This document shows positions 2,149-17,013 of a stretch of 25,527 bases of DNA, piece after piece. The notes below the pieces were generated by a model. It ran no database searches and was not told the origin of the DNA. It saw only the letters and a program-made list of their open reading frames with translations. The stretch spans positions 1 through 25,527 of IMG/VR virus record IMGVR_UViG_3300028388_003451, one strand, 5' to 3'. The stretch is from a virus. Made by a program: the position numbers and the translations under genes. Position 1 is the first letter of the stretch. Each line of letters starts with the position of its first letter.

Positions 2149-3342
2149 ATGTCACAAGATCTACTAGAAAGCCGTTGGGATGAAACCAAAGAAGCCCTAC
2201 TAGAAGGCTTGAATGGTTCTCGTCGTTCAACAATGGGTGTTATCCTAGAAAACACCAAGAAGCACTTGAATGAATCAAGTGCAGGTACTACTGTATCAGG
2301 CAACATCGCTACGCTTAACCGTGTAATTCTACCTGTTATCCGTCGTGTTATGCCTACAGTTATTGCTAACGAATTGGTTGGTGTTCAGCCAATGACTGGT
2401 CCTGTTGGCCAGATCCACACACTTCGTGTTCGTTATGCACAGGCTTTAACTGATTCATCAGCGGCTGCTACAAGCACATCAGCTGGCGAAGAAGCACTTA
2501 GCCCGTTCAAAATTGCACAGGCTTACTCAACAGTTGCTAACGCTACTAGCTCAGCTAGCAGTTACACTGGTGCTAGCACAGCTACACTAGAAGGCGACGG
2601 TGGTAAGAGCATTTCAGTACAGATCCTAAAGCAGGCTGTGGAAGCTCGTACTCGTAAGCTACAAGCACGTTGGACTTTTGAAGCTGCTCAAGACGCTCAA
2701 GCAATGCACGGCATTGACGTTGAAGCTGAAATCATGGCGGCACTTGCTCAGGAAATCACAGCTGAAATCGACCAAGAGATTCTACTTTCTCTTCGTACAC
2801 TAGCTGCTACTGAGTTCACATACAACCAAGCTACAGTATCGGGTACTGCTACATTCGTTGGTGACGAACACGCTGCACTAGCTGTTCTTATCAACCGTAC
2901 AGCTAACTTGATTGCTCAGCGTACACGTCGTGGTGCTGGTAACTACGCTGTTGTTTCACCTGCTGCACTAACAGTGCTACAGAGTGCTACAACTAGTGCA
3001 TTTGCTCGTACAACAGAAGGTACTTTCGAAGCTCCAACTAACACTAAGTTTGTTGGTACTCTAAACGGTACAATGCGTGTATTCTGTGACAGCTACGCTT
3101 CAGACACAACTCCAGTTCTTGTTGGTTACAAGGGTTCAAGTGAAACAGACGCACCAGCGTTCTATTGCCCATATGTACCACTAATGAGCTCAGGTGTTGT
3201 AATGGAACCATCAACATTCGAGCCAGTTGTATCGTTCATGACACGTTACGGCTACATCGAACTAACCAACACTGCGTCATCTTTCGGTAACGCTGGCGAC
3301 TATGTGGGTGAAATCGCAGTCTCGAACTTGAGCTTCTCATAA
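2149..3342 (+). CDS. 23: Major capsid protein gp23
   Basis: This 397-residue protein is the T4-like major head protein. The N-terminal ~40 residues are a helical propeptide-like stretch. The block NRVILPVIRRVMPTVIANEL (about 57-76) followed by VGVQPMTGPVGQI is the hallmark of the gp23 family, as is the C-terminal region with ASDTTPVLVGYKG and YCPYVPLM. It is shorter than T4 gp23 (521 residues), as usual in marine T4-like phages. A likely gp21 cleavage site is L40-N41-E42 just before SSAG, leaving about 355 residues. The gene has an AAGGAGG-type ribosome site and is followed by a strong terminator. Codon choice is uniform, consistent with high expression. Confidence 0.97.
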   Translation: MSQDLLESRWDETKEALLEGLNGSRRSTMGVILENTKKHLNESSAGTTVSGNIATLNRVILPVIRRVMPTVIANELVGVQPMTGPVGQIHTLRVRYAQALTDSSAAATSTSAGEEALSPFKIAQAYSTVANATSSASSYTGASTATLEGDGGKSISVQILKQAVEARTRKLQARWTFEAAQDAQAMHGIDVEAEIMAALAQEITAEIDQEILLSLRTLAATEFTYNQATVSGTATFVGDEHAALAVLINRTANLIAQRTRRGAGNYAVVSPAALTVLQSATTSAFARTTEGTFEAPTNTKFVGTLNGTMRVFCDSYASDTTPVLVGYKGSSETDAPAFYCPYVPLMSSGVVMEPSTFEPVVSFMTRYGYIELTNTASSFGNAGDYVGEIAVSNLSFS

Positions 3343-3372: not shown

Positions 3373-3400
3373 AAAAAGCACTCTTCGGAGTGCTTTTTTT
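3373..3400 (+). terminator. Rho-independent terminator after gp23
   Basis: The stem AAAAAGCACTC (3373-3383) pairs with GAGTGCTTTTT from 3388 around a TTCG tetraloop (3384-3387) and runs into seven T residues. It ends the head-gene transcript. The 3' arm contains GGAG at 3387-3390, ten bases before the ATG at 3401, so the terminator also carries the only visible ribosome site for the next small ORF. Confidence 0.93.
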
Positions 3401-3601
3401 ATGATTTGCTTTATCATACTAAGTATGTGCATGATATACATACTATTCCTTATACAGCTATCAGGGACACAATTTGCGACTCAGCAGATAGCAAACTTTG
3501 GCACCATGGACGAGTGCTTCGACGCTAGAGAACTTCTAGTACAGGAAATAGGACGCCCAGTGGTAAACTATCAGGCAATATGTATTGCACAATCTCAATA
3601 A
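3401..3601 (+). CDS. Small membrane-anchored or secreted protein of unknown function
   Basis: The product is 66 residues. Residues 1-21 are strongly hydrophobic (signal anchor or uncleaved signal sequence). The rest is a short soluble part with two cysteines, C39 in DECFDAR and C61 in YQAICIAQ, which could form a disulfide outside the cytoplasm. The pattern E-C-x-x-A-R ... N-Y-x-A-I-C-I resembles small hypothetical proteins common in marine T4-like phages, which supports it being real. The ATG touches the T-run of the gp23 terminator; expression must come from read-through, with GGAG in the hairpin arm as ribosome site. Met9 and Met11 are alternative starts but lack a ribosome site. I cannot assign a function; a lysis or envelope role is possible but unproven. 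Confidence 0.65.
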   Translation: MICFIILSMCMIYILFLIQLSGTQFATQQIANFGTMDECFDARELLVQEIGRPVVNYQAICIAQSQ

Positions 3602-3629: not shown

Positions 3630-3657
3630 TTGACTTTTATTTTAACGATGCTATAGT
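3630..3657 (+). promoter_or_regulatory. Sigma70-like promoter driving the putative ncRNA
   Basis: The -35 element is TTGACT (3630-3635), the spacer is 16 bases, and the -10 element is TATAGT (3652-3657) preceded by an extended -10 TGC (3649-3651). Transcription would begin at about 3664. This is the clearest host-type promoter in the window and differs from the TAAATA late boxes ahead of the structural genes. Confidence 0.75.
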
Positions 3658-3663
3658 AATAAA

Positions 3664-3907
3664 CATGTAGCAAGACGTTGTTACATGGGTTGGCAGTAAT
3701 AATCCAGTTTCTAGACAGGATAACTGCACTCGGTTAGGGGTAGTGCCCGGCATATACTTTGGAGACAAAGAGTATGCTAACTGCGATACCAAGCAGAACT
3801 GAGGTTCCGGTCGTGATATGAAGAAAGGTATCTAGACGGCCGGTTGGAGGTAAACCCAAGTCCTTCACCCACCCTTATTACAAAACCCGCCACTGTGCGG
3901 GTTTTTC
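3664..3907 (+). ncRNA. Putative structured non-coding RNA, family unrecognised
   Basis: This stretch lies between a good promoter and a good terminator and has no credible reading frame. Hairpins visible by eye are: 3664-3673 with 3678-3687 (10 pairs, loop GACG); 3693-3697 with 3723-3727, extended by 3702-3705 with 3718-3721; 3750-3754 with 3773-3777, extended by 3757-3761 with 3766-3770 and capped by a GAGA (GNRA-type) loop; 3781-3784 with 3793-3796; and 3807-3814 with 3836-3843 (8 pairs, one G-U). The loop GATACC (3785-3790) is perfectly complementary to GGTATC (3827-3832) inside the loop of the last hairpin, a likely kissing-loop or pseudoknot. GGTATC can instead pair locally with GATAT (3815-3819). 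It does not look like tRNA, tmRNA, RNase P RNA, 6S RNA or a group I intron. It could be a known marine-phage motif (e.g. an IMES-type RNA), which I cannot check, or a long attenuating leader of the gene at 4038. Confidence 0.68.
3882..3907 (+). terminator. Rho-independent terminator closing the ncRNA unit
   Basis: ACCCGC (3885-3890) pairs with GCGGGT (3897-3902) around a 6-base loop and is followed by a T-rich tract. A preceding A-run extends the pairing. It ends the transcript that starts at about 3664. Confidence 0.85.
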
Positions 3908-3939
3908 TTTATAGTACCACACTATATCTAGATTTTTTG

Positions 3940-3947
3940 CTAAATAC
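3940..3947 (+). promoter_or_regulatory. T4-type late promoter box
   Basis: CTAAATAC matches the T4 late consensus core (TATAAATA) and the TAAATAC boxes found before other genes of this window. It would start a late transcript near 3953 that carries the gene at 4038. Confidence 0.6.
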
Positions 3948-3955
3948 AATTATAC

Positions 3956-4017
3956 AACGCAATAATGCGTTTTATGCAGTATTAACCCACTGCGTAGCGG
4001 CTAGAACCCGCATTGGG
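3956..4017 (+). promoter_or_regulatory. Hairpin-rich leader of the gene at 4038
   Basis: Two stems follow the late box: AACGCA (3956-3961) with TGCGTT (3966-3971), loop ATAA; and CCCACTGCG (3986-3994) with CGCATTGGG (4009-4017), one mismatch in nine. A free TTAAGGAG ribosome site follows at about 4022-4029. The stems may stabilise the late mRNA; no T-run follows, so they are not terminators. Confidence 0.5.
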
Positions 4018-4037
4018 CTTCTTTAAGGAGAAATCAA

Positions 4038-4517
4038 ATGGGACGTCCTGTCAAAATTAAAAAATCATCAACAGTTGACATTGGTTTCAACAATCCAACT
4101 GGCGGTCAGTACTACGGTGTAGTAGGTGGTACTGATACTTTAAGTACATATGCAAATCCAGTCACTAAAGTGCGTGTAAAAATTGGTGCTAACGCAGAAG
4201 CTGATGGATATATTGTTCGTCAGAAAGGTGCTAGCAAGTATCTTGTAAGTGACGGTACAAACACTGGTGTTTGTACGCTTGCTAACAAAGCCGACTCTGC
4301 ACTAGCAGCAAATGAAATGACTATTACTGCTCAAGATTCGGGTTCAACTGAATTCCGCATCAAGCGCATGAGCAACAAGTTTGCACTTGACTTCAGTGAT
4401 AATCGTTATCTCATTAACTTCTTTGATGTTAATGCAGGTGTTGAAAAATCAGGTGCAGAAGGTTCAACAACTACAATTGAACTAGCACAAGTTGACAACT
4501 ACAACCTATACGGTTAA
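4038..4517 (+). CDS. Small virion structural protein (hypothetical)
   Basis: The product has 159 residues, starts MGRPVKIKKSS, and is predicted beta-rich throughout, with regions such as KVRVKIGANAEADGYIVRQK and a central YLVSDGTNTGVCTLANK. There is no signal peptide and no enzyme motif. Proteins with the same style of N-terminus and the VRQKGASKYLVSDG/GVCTL pattern recur near capsid genes in marine T4-like phages, so I infer a virion or head-decoration protein. It has its own late promoter, a structured leader and a very good ribosome site (TTAAGGAG), and is followed after 20 bases by a terminator. It thus forms a monocistronic, probably highly expressed late unit. Function is not established. 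Confidence 0.75.
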   Translation: MGRPVKIKKSSTVDIGFNNPTGGQYYGVVGGTDTLSTYANPVTKVRVKIGANAEADGYIVRQKGASKYLVSDGTNTGVCTLANKADSALAANEMTITAQDSGSTEFRIKRMSNKFALDFSDNRYLINFFDVNAGVEKSGAEGSTTTIELAQVDNYNLYG

Positions 4518-4569: not shown

Positions 4570-5157
4570 ATGAGTGTAGCCTTTGTACTAGGCAATGGAA
4601 AAAGTAGACTAGCATTAGATTTATATCAACTACAAGAAGTTGGTCCTATATATGCTTGTAATGCAATTTATAGAACATTTACACCTGATGTGTTAGTTGC
4701 AACAGACCCAGGAATCAGTAAAGCAATTCAAGAATCTGGGTATGCAAAGGAACATAGGTTTCATACCAGGCGTCCTATCGAAGGCACAGGTGCTAAAAGT
4801 TTACCTAAAGCATACAAAGGTTTTAGCAGTGGCCCGAATGCAGTGGCACAGGCTTGCATGGATGGATATCACGTGATGTATCTAATAGGATTCGATCTAG
4901 GTACCACAGATGGGCAGTTTAACAATGTGTACGCTGACACAGAATTTTACAAAAAGATAACCGATCCTCCTACTTTTTCAGGAAATTGGATCAAGCAAAT
5001 AAAACAACTTGCAGAAGAATATAGCAATCGTCGTTTTGTTCGGGTTGAAGGTCCAGAAACTGCTTTTGTTTCAGGCTTTAGAGATGTAGCAAATTTACAA
5101 ACCATGCCAATTGACAGGTTTCAAGAAAGGATAAATACTAGAAAAGGCTTGCTATGA
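4570..5157 (+). CDS. Rossmann-like protein, possibly MptE/MAF- or sialyltransferase-like
   Basis: The protein has 195 residues. The N-terminal VLGNGKSRL (6-14), YACNAIYR (28-35) and LVATD (42-46) look like the nucleotide-binding start of a Rossmann-type fold. A second block, SSGPNAVAQACMDGY (86-100) then YLIGFDLG (104-111), has the Ser-Gly ... Ala ... Gly-Tyr ... Ile-Gly-x-Asp pattern seen in the MAF_flag10/DUF115 and CstII-type sialyltransferase families. NNVYADTEFYKK (118-129) resembles proteins recurring in marine myoviruses. A transferase role (for example glycosylation of virion or host surface) is inference; no substrate can be named. The same layout is seen in the protein at 21896-22567. 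The start lies on a terminator T-run and the 3' end overlaps the next gene by 4 bases (ATGA). Confidence 0.7.
   Translation: MSVAFVLGNGKSRLALDLYQLQEVGPIYACNAIYRTFTPDVLVATDPGISKAIQESGYAKEHRFHTRRPIEGTGAKSLPKAYKGFSSGPNAVAQACMDGYHVMYLIGFDLGTTDGQFNNVYADTEFYKKITDPPTFSGNWIKQIKQLAEEYSNRRFVRVEGPETAFVSGFRDVANLQTMPIDRFQERINTRKGLL
5130..5138 (+). promoter_or_regulatory. T4-type late promoter box inside the 3' end of the preceding gene
   Basis: GATAAATAC lies 15 bases upstream of the ATG at 5154. The predicted transcript would have a leader of only about 10 bases. The same nonamer occurs at 6529 and 17067. Confidence 0.6.
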
Positions 5158-13101: not shown

Positions 13102-16100
13102 ATGGCCATTACAAGAATTAAGAATAATCAGATTACAGATAGTACTATTAACGCTGGTACTAAATTATCTGATAATTCTATTACCGCTGGTAAACTTGCA
13201 AACAACATTACTTACGGATCAGATTTTACAATCACAGGTAACTTAACAGTTAACGGTACAACTACAACTGTTGATACCAACAACATGACTGTTGATGATC
13301 CTTTACTGCTTCTTGGTAGTAACCAGACTGGGTCGGGCGCAGTTGATATTGGTTTCATTGGTGAACGAGGCGATGATACAAATATCGCATTTGTATTTGA
13401 TGAAAGTGCAGACGAATTTGCTGTAGCTCTTACAAGCACAACAGATGCTAATACCACAATCACTATTACAGATTATGCAGATATACATGCAGGTGGTGTA
13501 ACAGCGGATGACGCAATCACAGCCACTGGTAATGTAACAGGCGGCAACTTGATCACAGCCGGTGCACTCGAATCAGATAGTGCCGCTGTAACTAACGGAA
13601 TTACTGCAGGCACTACAGTTGTTGCCACTGGCAACGTTACAGGTGGTAATTTAACAACTGCCGGGGACGTAACCACAGCAACAGTTACAGCAAGTGGTGC
13701 CATAACAGGTAGTACAAATATTACAGCCACAGGTAACGTAACTGGCGGTAACTTGATTACAGGCGGCGATGCAGACATCACAGGCGATGTTGGTGCTGCT
13801 ACTGCTACTATAACTGGAAATTCTACAATAGGTGGCACCTTAGGGGTCACAGGTGAAGCAACACTTGCAAGTGCTACTGTAAGTGATTTGACAAGCGGAC
13901 GAGTTGTACTAGCAGGTGCAAGTGGTGCAATCGAAGATAGCGGCAATTTAACTTTTGATGGAAGTACATTAGGTGTCACTGGAGCAATTACAGCAAGCAC
14001 AACAGTGACAGCCACTGGGAATGTCACTGGTGGTAACTTAACAACAAGTGGAGATGTAACCACTGCAACAGTTACAGCAAGTGGTGCTATTACTAGTTCA
14101 ACTACTATTACAGCCACTGGTAACATCACAGGTGGTAACTTGATTACTGCTGGTACATTTGAATCATCTGCGGTTACTGCTACTGGTAACATCACAGGTG
14201 GTAATTTGATTACAACCGGTGCAACTGAAACTGGTACTATCACAACCACAGGCGAAGCAACATTAGCTAGTGCTACTGTAAGTGATTTAACCGATGGGCG
14301 TGTCGTACTAGCAGGAAGTAATGGTGCAATTGAAGATAGTGCTAACTTTACATTTGATGGATCTACAGCAGCAGTTACTGGTGCAATTACAGCAAGTACA
14401 ACTATTACAGCCACAGGTAACGTAACTGGTGATAACCTAACAACAAGTGGAGATGTAACCACTGCAACAGTTACAGCAAGTTCAACTGTTACAGCAACTG
14501 GCAATGTCACAGGTGGCAACATCACAACTGCCGGTGTACTAGACGGTGCTACTCTTAACACAACTGGTGCCGGCGATATTGGCGGCGACCTTACAATTGC
14601 AGGTAACTTGATTGTACAAGGTGCAACGCAAACTGTTGATGCTACTACATCAACACTAGTTGACCCGATTATGCAGTTAGGCCGTGGAGCAAACAATGCT
14701 GCACTGACAAGCGATGATGCTAAAGACCGTGGTATTTCTATGTACTACTATGAAGGATCAGAAAAAGTATCTTTCATGGGATTTGATACCACAAACAATA
14801 ACTTTGTGTTTATTCCAGATGCATCAATCACAGGTGAAGTTGTTAGTGGTACCGCAGGTAATGCAACATTTGGTGTTTTGACAACAACTTCAGTATCAGC
14901 AAGCGGTAACGTAACTGCCGGCAATTTAACAACAAGTGGAGACGTAACCACAGCAACAGTTACAGCTTCAGGTGCTATTACTAGTTCAACTACTATTACA
15001 GCTACTGGTAATATTACAGGTGGTAACCTGATTACTGCTGGTACATTTGAATCTGCTTCTGTTACAGCAACAGGTAATGTAACAGGTGGTAATTTGATCA
15101 CAGCAGGTGATACATCGACTGCTACACTACAAACATCAGGAGAAGCTACATTAGCAAGTGCTACTGTAAGCGATTTGACAGACAATCGTGTTGTAATTGC
15201 TGGCACTAGTGGTGCATTAGAAGATGATGCTAACTTTACATTCGACGGCTCGACTCTTGCATTAACAGGAAACGCATCAGTAACAGGTGCAATTACAGCA
15301 AGCACAACTATTACTGGTACAGGCAATGTTACAGGTGGAAACTTAACAACAGCAGGCGATGTAACTACTGCAACAGTTACAGCAAGTGGTGCTATTGCTG
15401 GTTCAACTACAATTACAGCTACAGGTAACGTGACTGGTGGTAACTTAATAACAGCAGGCGATACTTCAACTGCTACACTACAAACATCAGGAGAAGCTAC
15501 ATTAGCAAGTGCTACTGTAAGCGATTTGACTGATGGGCGTGTTGTACTAGCAGGAACCAGCGGCGCTATCGAAGATAGTGCTAACTTTACATTTGATGGA
15601 TCTACGGCAGCAGTTACAGGAGCTATTACAGCAAGCACTACAATTACTGCTACTGGTAACGTAACTGGTGGTAACCTAACAACAGCAGGTGACGTAACCA
15701 CTGCTACTGTAACAGCTTCGGGTGCTATCACTGGATCAACAACTATCACTGCAACTGGTAATGTCACTGGTGGTAACTTGATTACAGGTGGCGATGCAGA
15801 TGTCACAGGTGATGTTAGTGCTGCTACTGCTACAATCAGCGGTAACATATCAGGTGGAAACATTGCTATTTCAGGCAGTGGCGATGTACAAACCAGTTTG
15901 ATTGTCGGCGATGTACTTGCTAATATTACAAGTGGCACAACACTGGATGTTTCATCAACTGACAGTATACTAATTCCAGTTGGTACTACTGCACAACGTC
16001 CAGGCTCACCAGTAACTGGTATGATACGTTTCAATACAACAGTTGATAACCTTGAATTTTACGATGCTGACGGTTGGACAACTGCTGGTAGTCAGTTTAC

Positions 16101-17013
16101 AGTTATTGATAGCGAAACATTCAACGGTGATGGAAGCACAGTAGCATTTACGCTAAGTGACGCACAAACAACTGCAAGTTGTATTGTAAGCATTAACGGT
16201 GTTGTACAGCTTCCAACTACAGCATACAGTGTAAGTTCGACTACACTTACATTTACAGAAGCACCACTTAGCGGTGATTCAATTGAAGTTCGTAAACTCA
16301 CAACCACCCAAACTGTTAGTAGCTTACAAAATGGTGATGGGTCTGCGATTGTTGAAACTCAGGATGGTGTTGCAAATACTAGTGTAACTGGAAACTTAAT
16401 TGTTAGTGGAAGCATCGAAGGCGCCAGCTTTGTTGGGCTAGATGCTACCAAGATCGAGGATGGAACAACTAATGTATCTGTAGATTCGTCAGGAGGTCCA
16501 GTCAGCTTTGATATTGGTGGCACAAATATTATTAATGTTACGAGTGCAGGCATTACCAATGGACAAGCAGATGGTGTCGGTAACATTGGTAGTTCTACCA
16601 CAGGCTTTAACACTGTATTTGCAGTAGCTACAAGCGCACAGTACGCTGACTTGGCAGAAATGTACGCTGCAGATGAAGATATAGAAGTCGGTACTGTTGT
16701 TGTGTTTGGCGGAGATGAGGAAGTAACAACTGCCACAGTTGAGAACGATCATCGTGTAGCAGGTGTTGTTTCAACAAATCCAAGTTACCTAATGAACAGT
16801 GCTATTGATGCAGAACACGCAGTTGCAGTTGCACTTACAGGTCGTGTACCATGTAAAGTTACAGGTAATGTTGCCAAAGGTGACTTGATGGTATCTGCAG
16901 GAAACGGTAAGGCAAAAGCCAACAACAATCCTGCTCCAGGTACAATCATTGGTAAGGCGCTTGAAGCAAGCACAGGTGATGCTACTATTGAGGTGGTAGT
17001 AGGTCGTTTCTAA
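13102..17013 (+). CDS. Giant repetitive tail fibre with C-terminal autoprotease/chaperone-like domain
   Basis: The protein has 1303 residues. The N-terminus ITRIKNNQITDSTINAGTKL is a common marine fibre start. A module with GNLTVNGTTTTVDTNNM and DPLLLLGSN (about 46-113) is followed by a repeat field (about 135-920) with fifteen copies of an ATGN(V/I)TGGN-type unit. Interspersed are four copies of a longer unit (EATLASATVSDLTDGRVVLAG) and a second DP..LG module near 500-575. The shared pair QRPGSPVTGMIRFN (about 964) and FNGDGSTVAFTLSD (about 1007) follows. The last ~145 residues (GNIGSSTTGFNTVFAVATSA, YADLAEMYAADEDIEVGTVV) resemble C-terminal intramolecular chaperone/peptidase G2-like fibre domains. 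It is preceded by a late box and followed by a terminator, so it is a single-gene unit. Confidence 0.85.
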   Translation: MAITRIKNNQITDSTINAGTKLSDNSITAGKLANNITYGSDFTITGNLTVNGTTTTVDTNNMTVDDPLLLLGSNQTGSGAVDIGFIGERGDDTNIAFVFDESADEFAVALTSTTDANTTITITDYADIHAGGVTADDAITATGNVTGGNLITAGALESDSAAVTNGITAGTTVVATGNVTGGNLTTAGDVTTATVTASGAITGSTNITATGNVTGGNLITGGDADITGDVGAATATITGNSTIGGTLGVTGEATLASATVSDLTSGRVVLAGASGAIEDSGNLTFDGSTLGVTGAITASTTVTATGNVTGGNLTTSGDVTTATVTASGAITSSTTITATGNITGGNLITAGTFESSAVTATGNITGGNLITTGATETGTITTTGEATLASATVSDLTDGRVVLAGSNGAIEDSANFTFDGSTAAVTGAITASTTITATGNVTGDNLTTSGDVTTATVTASSTVTATGNVTGGNITTAGVLDGATLNTTGAGDIGGDLTIAGNLIVQGATQTVDATTSTLVDPIMQLGRGANNAALTSDDAKDRGISMYYYEGSEKVSFMGFDTTNNNFVFIPDASITGEVVSGTAGNATFGVLTTTSVSASGNVTAGNLTTSGDVTTATVTASGAITSSTTITATGNITGGNLITAGTFESASVTATGNVTGGNLITAGDTSTATLQTSGEATLASATVSDLTDNRVVIAGTSGALEDDANFTFDGSTLALTGNASVTGAITASTTITGTGNVTGGNLTTAGDVTTATVTASGAIAGSTTITATGNVTGGNLITAGDTSTATLQTSGEATLASATVSDLTDGRVVLAGTSGAIEDSANFTFDGSTAAVTGAITASTTITATGNVTGGNLTTAGDVTTATVTASGAITGSTTITATGNVTGGNLITGGDADVTGDVSAATATISGNISGGNIAISGSGDVQTSLIVGDVLANITSGTTLDVSSTDSILIPVGTTAQRPGSPVTGMIRFNTTVDNLEFYDADGWTTAGSQFTVIDSETFNGDGSTVAFTLSDAQTTASCIVSINGVVQLPTTAYSVSSTTLTFTEAPLSGDSIEVRKLTTTQTVSSLQNGDGSAIVETQDGVANTSVTGNLIVSGSIEGASFVGLDATKIEDGTTNVSVDSSGGPVSFDIGGTNIINVTSAGITNGQADGVGNIGSSTTGFNTVFAVATSAQYADLAEMYAADEDIEVGTVVVFGGDEEVTTATVENDHRVAGVVSTNPSYLMNSAIDAEHAVAVALTGRVPCKVTGNVAKGDLMVSAGNGKAKANNNPAPGTIIGKALEASTGDATIEVVVGRF
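13513..15850 (+). repeat. In-frame hierarchical coding repeats of the fibre gene
   Basis: Short units (about 34 codons, core ATGNVTGGNL) recur about fifteen times. Four longer units (starting near 13857, 14257, 15143 and 15493) are superimposed. Two copies within it are identical over 62 bases (15118-15179 and 15469-15530), 351 bases (117 codons) apart, pointing to recent duplication or conversion. Other copies differ mainly at third codon positions. Confidence 0.9.

Follow-up and report, generated by a model that had tools for sequence, protein, structure and literature searches.

The interval downstream of the major capsid protein gene (gp23) in the viral sequence IMGVR_UViG_3300028388_003451 of IMG/VR (a record of 26.6 kb; positions 1 to 25,527, the whole of the 25,527-nt stretch analysed, hereafter the window) raises the question of whether it encodes an RNA of its own and, if so, of which kind. 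An initial annotation made from the sequence alone had described a stand-alone structured unit at 3630–3907, with a host-type promoter, several hairpins and a terminator, set among genes with late boxes, and had considered it an undescribed element fitting no common RNA class. The first part of this description stood, as the unit is real and the promoter, hairpins and terminator lie where they had been placed. The second part fell, since the Rfam covariance search found a full-length match (model positions 1–192 of 192) to manA RNA (RF01745) at 3668–3876 on the + strand, with 92.4 bits (cut-off 55.2, E = 8e-23), which rules out an undescribed RNA class; manA was the only Rfam family to reach its cut-off at this site. 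Judged from its sequence, the unit belongs, as a divergent representative, to the manA family, known since 2010, and the novelty lies in the architecture, a free-standing manA variant with its own promoter and terminator. The region 3661–3910 folds with -89.7 kcal/mol (z = -4.8; none of 200 dinucleotide shuffles was as good). No conserved ORF was detected in the transcript, the longest in the window having 20 aa and the frames differing between relatives, in agreement with the earlier view that no plausible ORF is present. The features of the locus are listed in Table 1.

Table 1. Features of the manA RNA gene and of its surroundings in the window
Feature	Coordinates	Strand	Remarks
Major capsid protein gp23 gene, upstream neighbour	2149..3342	+	Pfam Gp23, 328.6 bits
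Intrinsic terminator of gp23	3373..3398	+	11-pair stem, TTCG loop, T run
66-aa ORF between gp23 and the RNA, no known family	3401..3601	+	Missing, like the RNA unit, from L003
Extended sigma70-type promoter TTGACT-16-TATAGT, TG before -10	3630..3657	+	Kept in relatives; probable start near 3664-3665
RNA gene, divergent manA-family RNA plus terminator	3664..3907	+	RF01745 match, compensated pairs; predicted start
5' hairpin, 9 pairs, loop GACG	3665..3686	+	Begins at the predicted first transcribed base
Closing helix, 5' strand GGGU	3687..3690	+	Partner of 3867-3870; invariant in window clade
Arm 1 (3693-3697/3723-3727, inner 3702-3706/3717-3721)	3693..3727	+	6 compensated pairs
Arm 2 (helix 3729-3735/3797-3803), carries three hairpins	3729..3803	+	8 compensated pairs over the arm
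Arm 3 (helix 3807-3813/3837-3843), invariant GGUAUC in loop	3807..3843	+	4 compensated pairs
Arm 4 (GGAGG 3846-3850/CCUUC 3862-3866)	3846..3866	+	Invariant in A4
Closing helix, 3' strand ACCC	3867..3870	+	Invariant in window clade
Intrinsic terminator of the RNA gene	3882..3905	+	Common to relatives, stem sequence varies
Late-promoter box TAAATA of the next gene	3941..3946	+	
Freshwater-2 RNA RF02980, leader of ORF 4038-4517	3955..4040	+	73.8 bits, cut-off 49.9

As blastn of the RNA region against named phages gave no match, the family consensus was used to find relatives (37 phage records found, 20 examined), and further loci were taken from IMG/VR by pattern scans. Since the search patterns are confined to the 3' core or the 5' hairpin and include neither promoter nor terminator, these two elements were not selected for. 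With a covariance model, R1, constructed from the family consensus and 19 phage copies, the loci split into a marine cyanophage clade, whose full-length copies mostly score 150–195 bits, and a window clade scoring 36–58 bits. The latter comprises 43 closely related loci including the window, with 24 distinct cores; a more specific pattern for this clade gave no matches. Each of the 10 large window-clade records passed the RF01745 cut-off, with one copy apiece. The hosts of the window clade are probably not cyanobacteria, because no psbA was detected in 13 window-clade records, which may be incomplete. Among named relatives, those closest to the window gp23 belong to jumbo T4-like phages, PA5oct for instance (64% identity). 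Two further loci, L287:3852-4058 and L301:3746-3953, score 35.7 and 43.2 bits, below the Rfam cut-off; promoter, 5' hairpin, closing strand and terminator are retained in both, but the interior differs. They fold no better than shuffles and may represent a third, diverged manA group.

The structure was analysed with RNAalifold on 28 window-clade sequences (A4). Of 66 predicted pairs, 23 showed compensatory changes, as against 8.7 pairs changed on both sides in shuffles and 1–3 with the partners slid, and 98.8% of cells were paired when the predicted structure and a GATACC/GGTATC contact (see below) were counted together. Comparative sequence evidence of this kind strongly supports the predicted pairing of the RNA in the window clade, and bears out the structured character claimed at the outset. 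Several details are worth noting: i) the 5' hairpin carries an A-U to G-C exchange in 12 of the 28 sequences; ii) the closing helix reads GGGAG/CUCCC or GGGUG/CACCC in cyanophages, differing in sequence but still pairing; iii) arm 2 includes a hairpin at 3750–3777 capped by a GAGA (GNRA) loop at 3762–3765; and iv) in L292 and L297 both sides of arm 4 are changed with the pairing kept (AGAGG/CCTCT). The initial annotation had also proposed a kissing or pseudoknot contact between the loops GATACC (3785–3790) and GGTATC (3827–3832). The complementarity is there, but the contact itself found no covariation in its favour: the outer pair fails in 11 and a second pair in 2 of the 28 sequences, with zero compensatory changes, and GGTATC is absent from the marine manA sequences, leaving the contact possible but unsupported. 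Two other readings were dropped, a pseudoknot suggested by the Rfam brackets, which mark the nested closing helix, and a pairing of CCUCC near the 3' end with the ribosomal anti-SD sequence, the window clade having ACCC at that place.

Apart from the promoter of the RNA, neither strand of the 25.5-kb window has an extended sigma70-type promoter with a score of 10/12 or more, the chance level being 0.15 per strand (first-order Markov shuffles). Since about 2.3 looser matches are expected by chance in an 800-base local scan, the promoter was established by its conservation in relatives. Every one of the 23 distinct window-clade copies with sufficient flanking sequence has a promoter of at least 10/12 (2.6% in random stretches taken from these loci); it ends 26–28 nt before the core and has the extended TG in 22 of the 23. 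Such a promoter is also present in 98 of 104 distinct marine copies. A terminator starts 7–10 nt after the core in all 23 testable distinct window-clade copies (random stretches, 2%); its arms fall into several unrelated sequences, next to a core that hardly varies. Of the marine copies, 12 of 107 were found to have a terminator; a looser search gave 21/21 for the window clade and 18/106 for the marine clade (control, 5.4%), placing the marine proportion at about 11–17%. The RNA thus appears to start from a promoter of its own in both clades, and the window-clade copies appear to be closed off downstream as well. Family membership, pairing and the conserved promoter and terminator are shown by comparison among relatives, and it is well supported that the unit is a transcription unit of its own, having the promoter, intrinsic terminator and lack of a conserved ORF that define a free-standing small RNA gene; from this we infer that the gene itself is transcribed.

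Independence from the next gene is suggested by the downstream region. In most window-clade loci the terminator is followed by a late box (GATAAATAC or similar) and then by a freshwater-2-like leader, after which the ORF usually begins with MGRP, although L084 has a different gene there. On the + strand of the window, TAAATA occurs at or near gene starts in all cases but one (7718). The freshwater-2 RNA of the window starts just 3' of its late box and ends at the ATG of the following ORF; members of this RNA family seem to form the 5' UTR of a late structural gene in T4-like phages. The 5'-UTR position implied by the cis-regulatory label of manA, which is an annotation of the family and not part of its model, was thus not found here, where the RNA ends in a terminator in 23/23 copies and a separate late box serves the next gene. 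The close relative L003 has gp23 as well as the next gene with its late leader but no RNA unit; its matches to the window lie at 3217–3342 and 3901–4436, with 55 bases between them. This comparison shows that the RNA unit would be dispensable for the neighbouring gene.

What follows gp23 varies among close gp23 relatives, and this interval seems to be a site of turnover. It is empty in L003 (5382–5436), and in L010, L017, L020, L029, L033, L059 and L067 homing endonuclease-like ORFs, recognized by eye, were seen about 50–100 nt after gp23 with similar sigma70 promoters. A fixed position of manA after gp23 was rejected, as manA was found in 0/73 records of close gp23 relatives with the Rfam model and in 0/71 loci with R1. 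Elsewhere in the window, two long ORFs on the - strand, 13473–14696 and 14748–16034 (407 and 428 aa), lie antisense to a 1303-aa ORF (13102–17013) and are probably an effect of composition.

In cyanophages, manA directly follows gp23 in five named phages (P-HM1, MED4-213, P-RSM4, metaG-MbCM1 and S-SSM5), and in others it follows pstS, regA, ferredoxin, pebS or other genes. In P-HM1 and MED4-213 the manA copy has a terminator at its end. The genes 3' of the marine copies are diverse (gp32 in 22 of 86, transaldolase in 9, phosphomannomutase in 4, mannose-6-P isomerase in 3 and PurS in 3), a spread that fits better with a promoter-bearing RNA cassette than with a sensor of a single metabolite. 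Many marine copies appear to be shielded from upstream transcription, the -35 element lying within the terminator hairpin of the upstream gene in 45 of 97 distinct loci (3.4% when the preceding bases were shuffled). In such fused terminator-promoters (L135–L273), TTGACA is in the hairpin and the T run stands just before the -10 element. Since the next ORF is on the same strand in 102 of 106 marine copies and the terminator is mostly absent, the RNA may have a leader role in this clade, perhaps in addition to that of a free RNA. Small hypothetical proteins annotated over manA in P-HM1 (PHM1_121), P-HM2 (PHM2_011 and PHM2_012), P-SSM4 (PSSM4_169.1) and S-SSM5 (SSSM5_127) are probably spurious genes. 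Strong manA matches were also seen in cellular contigs, namely in a 189-kb contig from a single Prochlorococcus cell and in two bins of marine metagenomes (L277, L278 and L279), which may be phage DNA.

We consider it likely that the divergent manA RNA of the window is encoded by a T4-like phage as an RNA gene in its own right, non-coding and acting in trans. Host RNA polymerase would start at the extended sigma70 promoter, on the first base of the 5' hairpin, and stop at the intrinsic terminator, yielding a folded RNA of about 240 nt that consists of the 5' hairpin and a junction of four arms with GGGU/ACCC as its closing helix. Synthesis of this RNA would not depend on the surrounding late genes. 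The type of promoter suggests that it is made early in infection, and since there is no gene in cis, action in trans as a stable structured RNA would be most likely, with a protein or another RNA perhaps as its partner. In cyanophages, this promoter-plus-RNA cassette would have been fused secondarily to genes and, mostly lacking a terminator, would run into an assortment of them; on this account, such running into genes is the origin of the cis-regulatory label of manA.

That label has its own history. The RNA was rated 'Y' as cis-regulatory and 'y' as a riboswitch by Weinberg et al. in 2010 (PMC2864571), is listed as cis-regulatory by Rfam as well, and has since been described in the same way (PMC9964418; PMC12197685), once with the remark that its role is still to be verified. 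Under such a scheme, a ligand would fold the manA core and control either terminator read-through or translation of the following gene. The many marine phages with a gene start within 100 nt are in keeping with this, and the short distance between core and terminator in the window clade is a layout that riboswitches share, an aptamer followed closely by a terminator. However, an attenuation riboswitch requires that a terminator arm pair alternatively with the RNA, and although the terminator stems vary widely, complementarity of their arms to the RNA did not exceed that of shuffles for 10 of 11 variants (the exception being L096), which counts against a riboswitch; no expression platform such as a shared antiterminator was found. 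The next gene is preceded by a late promoter and leader of its own and persists in L003 without the RNA, and the marine downstream genes are too diverse for one metabolite. We therefore regard a cis-acting leader or riboswitch as unlikely.

It is more doubtful still that the unit serves as a strong early promoter with a stable folded 5' end which protects or boosts the transcript behind it, the window-clade copies being orphans of such a device. The constant placement of the RNA directly at a strong promoter, the hairpin at its first base, the marine -35 elements within upstream terminator hairpins and the assorted downstream genes would all agree with this, but the window-clade copies keep their full pairing with nothing downstream to protect, and the conserved loops exceed the needs of a stabiliser. 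Least probable is a passenger lacking a phage function in an interval that takes up mobile early-promoter units, as the endonuclease-like ORFs behind similar promoters, the empty interval of L003 and the many manA loci of cyanophages might suggest, given that pairing, promoter and terminator are strongly conserved in all copies and no mobility protein adjoins the RNA.

Returning to the trans-acting RNA gene, it is conceivable, and we propose this only tentatively, that the whole manA family is a promoter-bearing phage RNA gene acting in trans and not a riboswitch class, found in no fewer than two groups of T4-like phages, with L287 and L301 as a possible third, diverged one, and that the gene associations from which it was named reflect read-through from a strong promoter. 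The window-clade copies give reason to doubt the cis-regulatory label of the family. For a riboswitch candidate of such long standing, copies associated with no gene redirect the search towards a free RNA with an early-type promoter. The question becomes directly testable, namely whether a discrete RNA of about 240 nt appears at early stages of infection and which partner it has. manA RNA is encoded by phages whose infection transcriptomes have been sequenced, among them P-HM2 (positions about 4770–5020), for which strand-specific RNA-seq of infected Prochlorococcus MED4 is public (GEO GSE79359, PMC5082946).

Compared with known systems, the window RNA resembles manA RF01745 in its covariance match over the full length, in the order of its arms, in its 5' hairpin and closing helix, and in the position after gp23 that it shares with the five named phages above. 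It differs from marine manA in that its clade is far removed in sequence, always has a terminator and no gene in cis, and occurs in phages without detected psbA. Freshwater-2 RNA (RF02980) is likewise structured and lies in the same intergenic region, but it is the leader of a late gene (4038–4517) behind a late box and would be a separate transcript. Free-standing small RNAs of phages are structured and non-coding and have their own promoter and terminator; among them, the window RNA is set apart by reaching the Rfam cut-off for manA alone.
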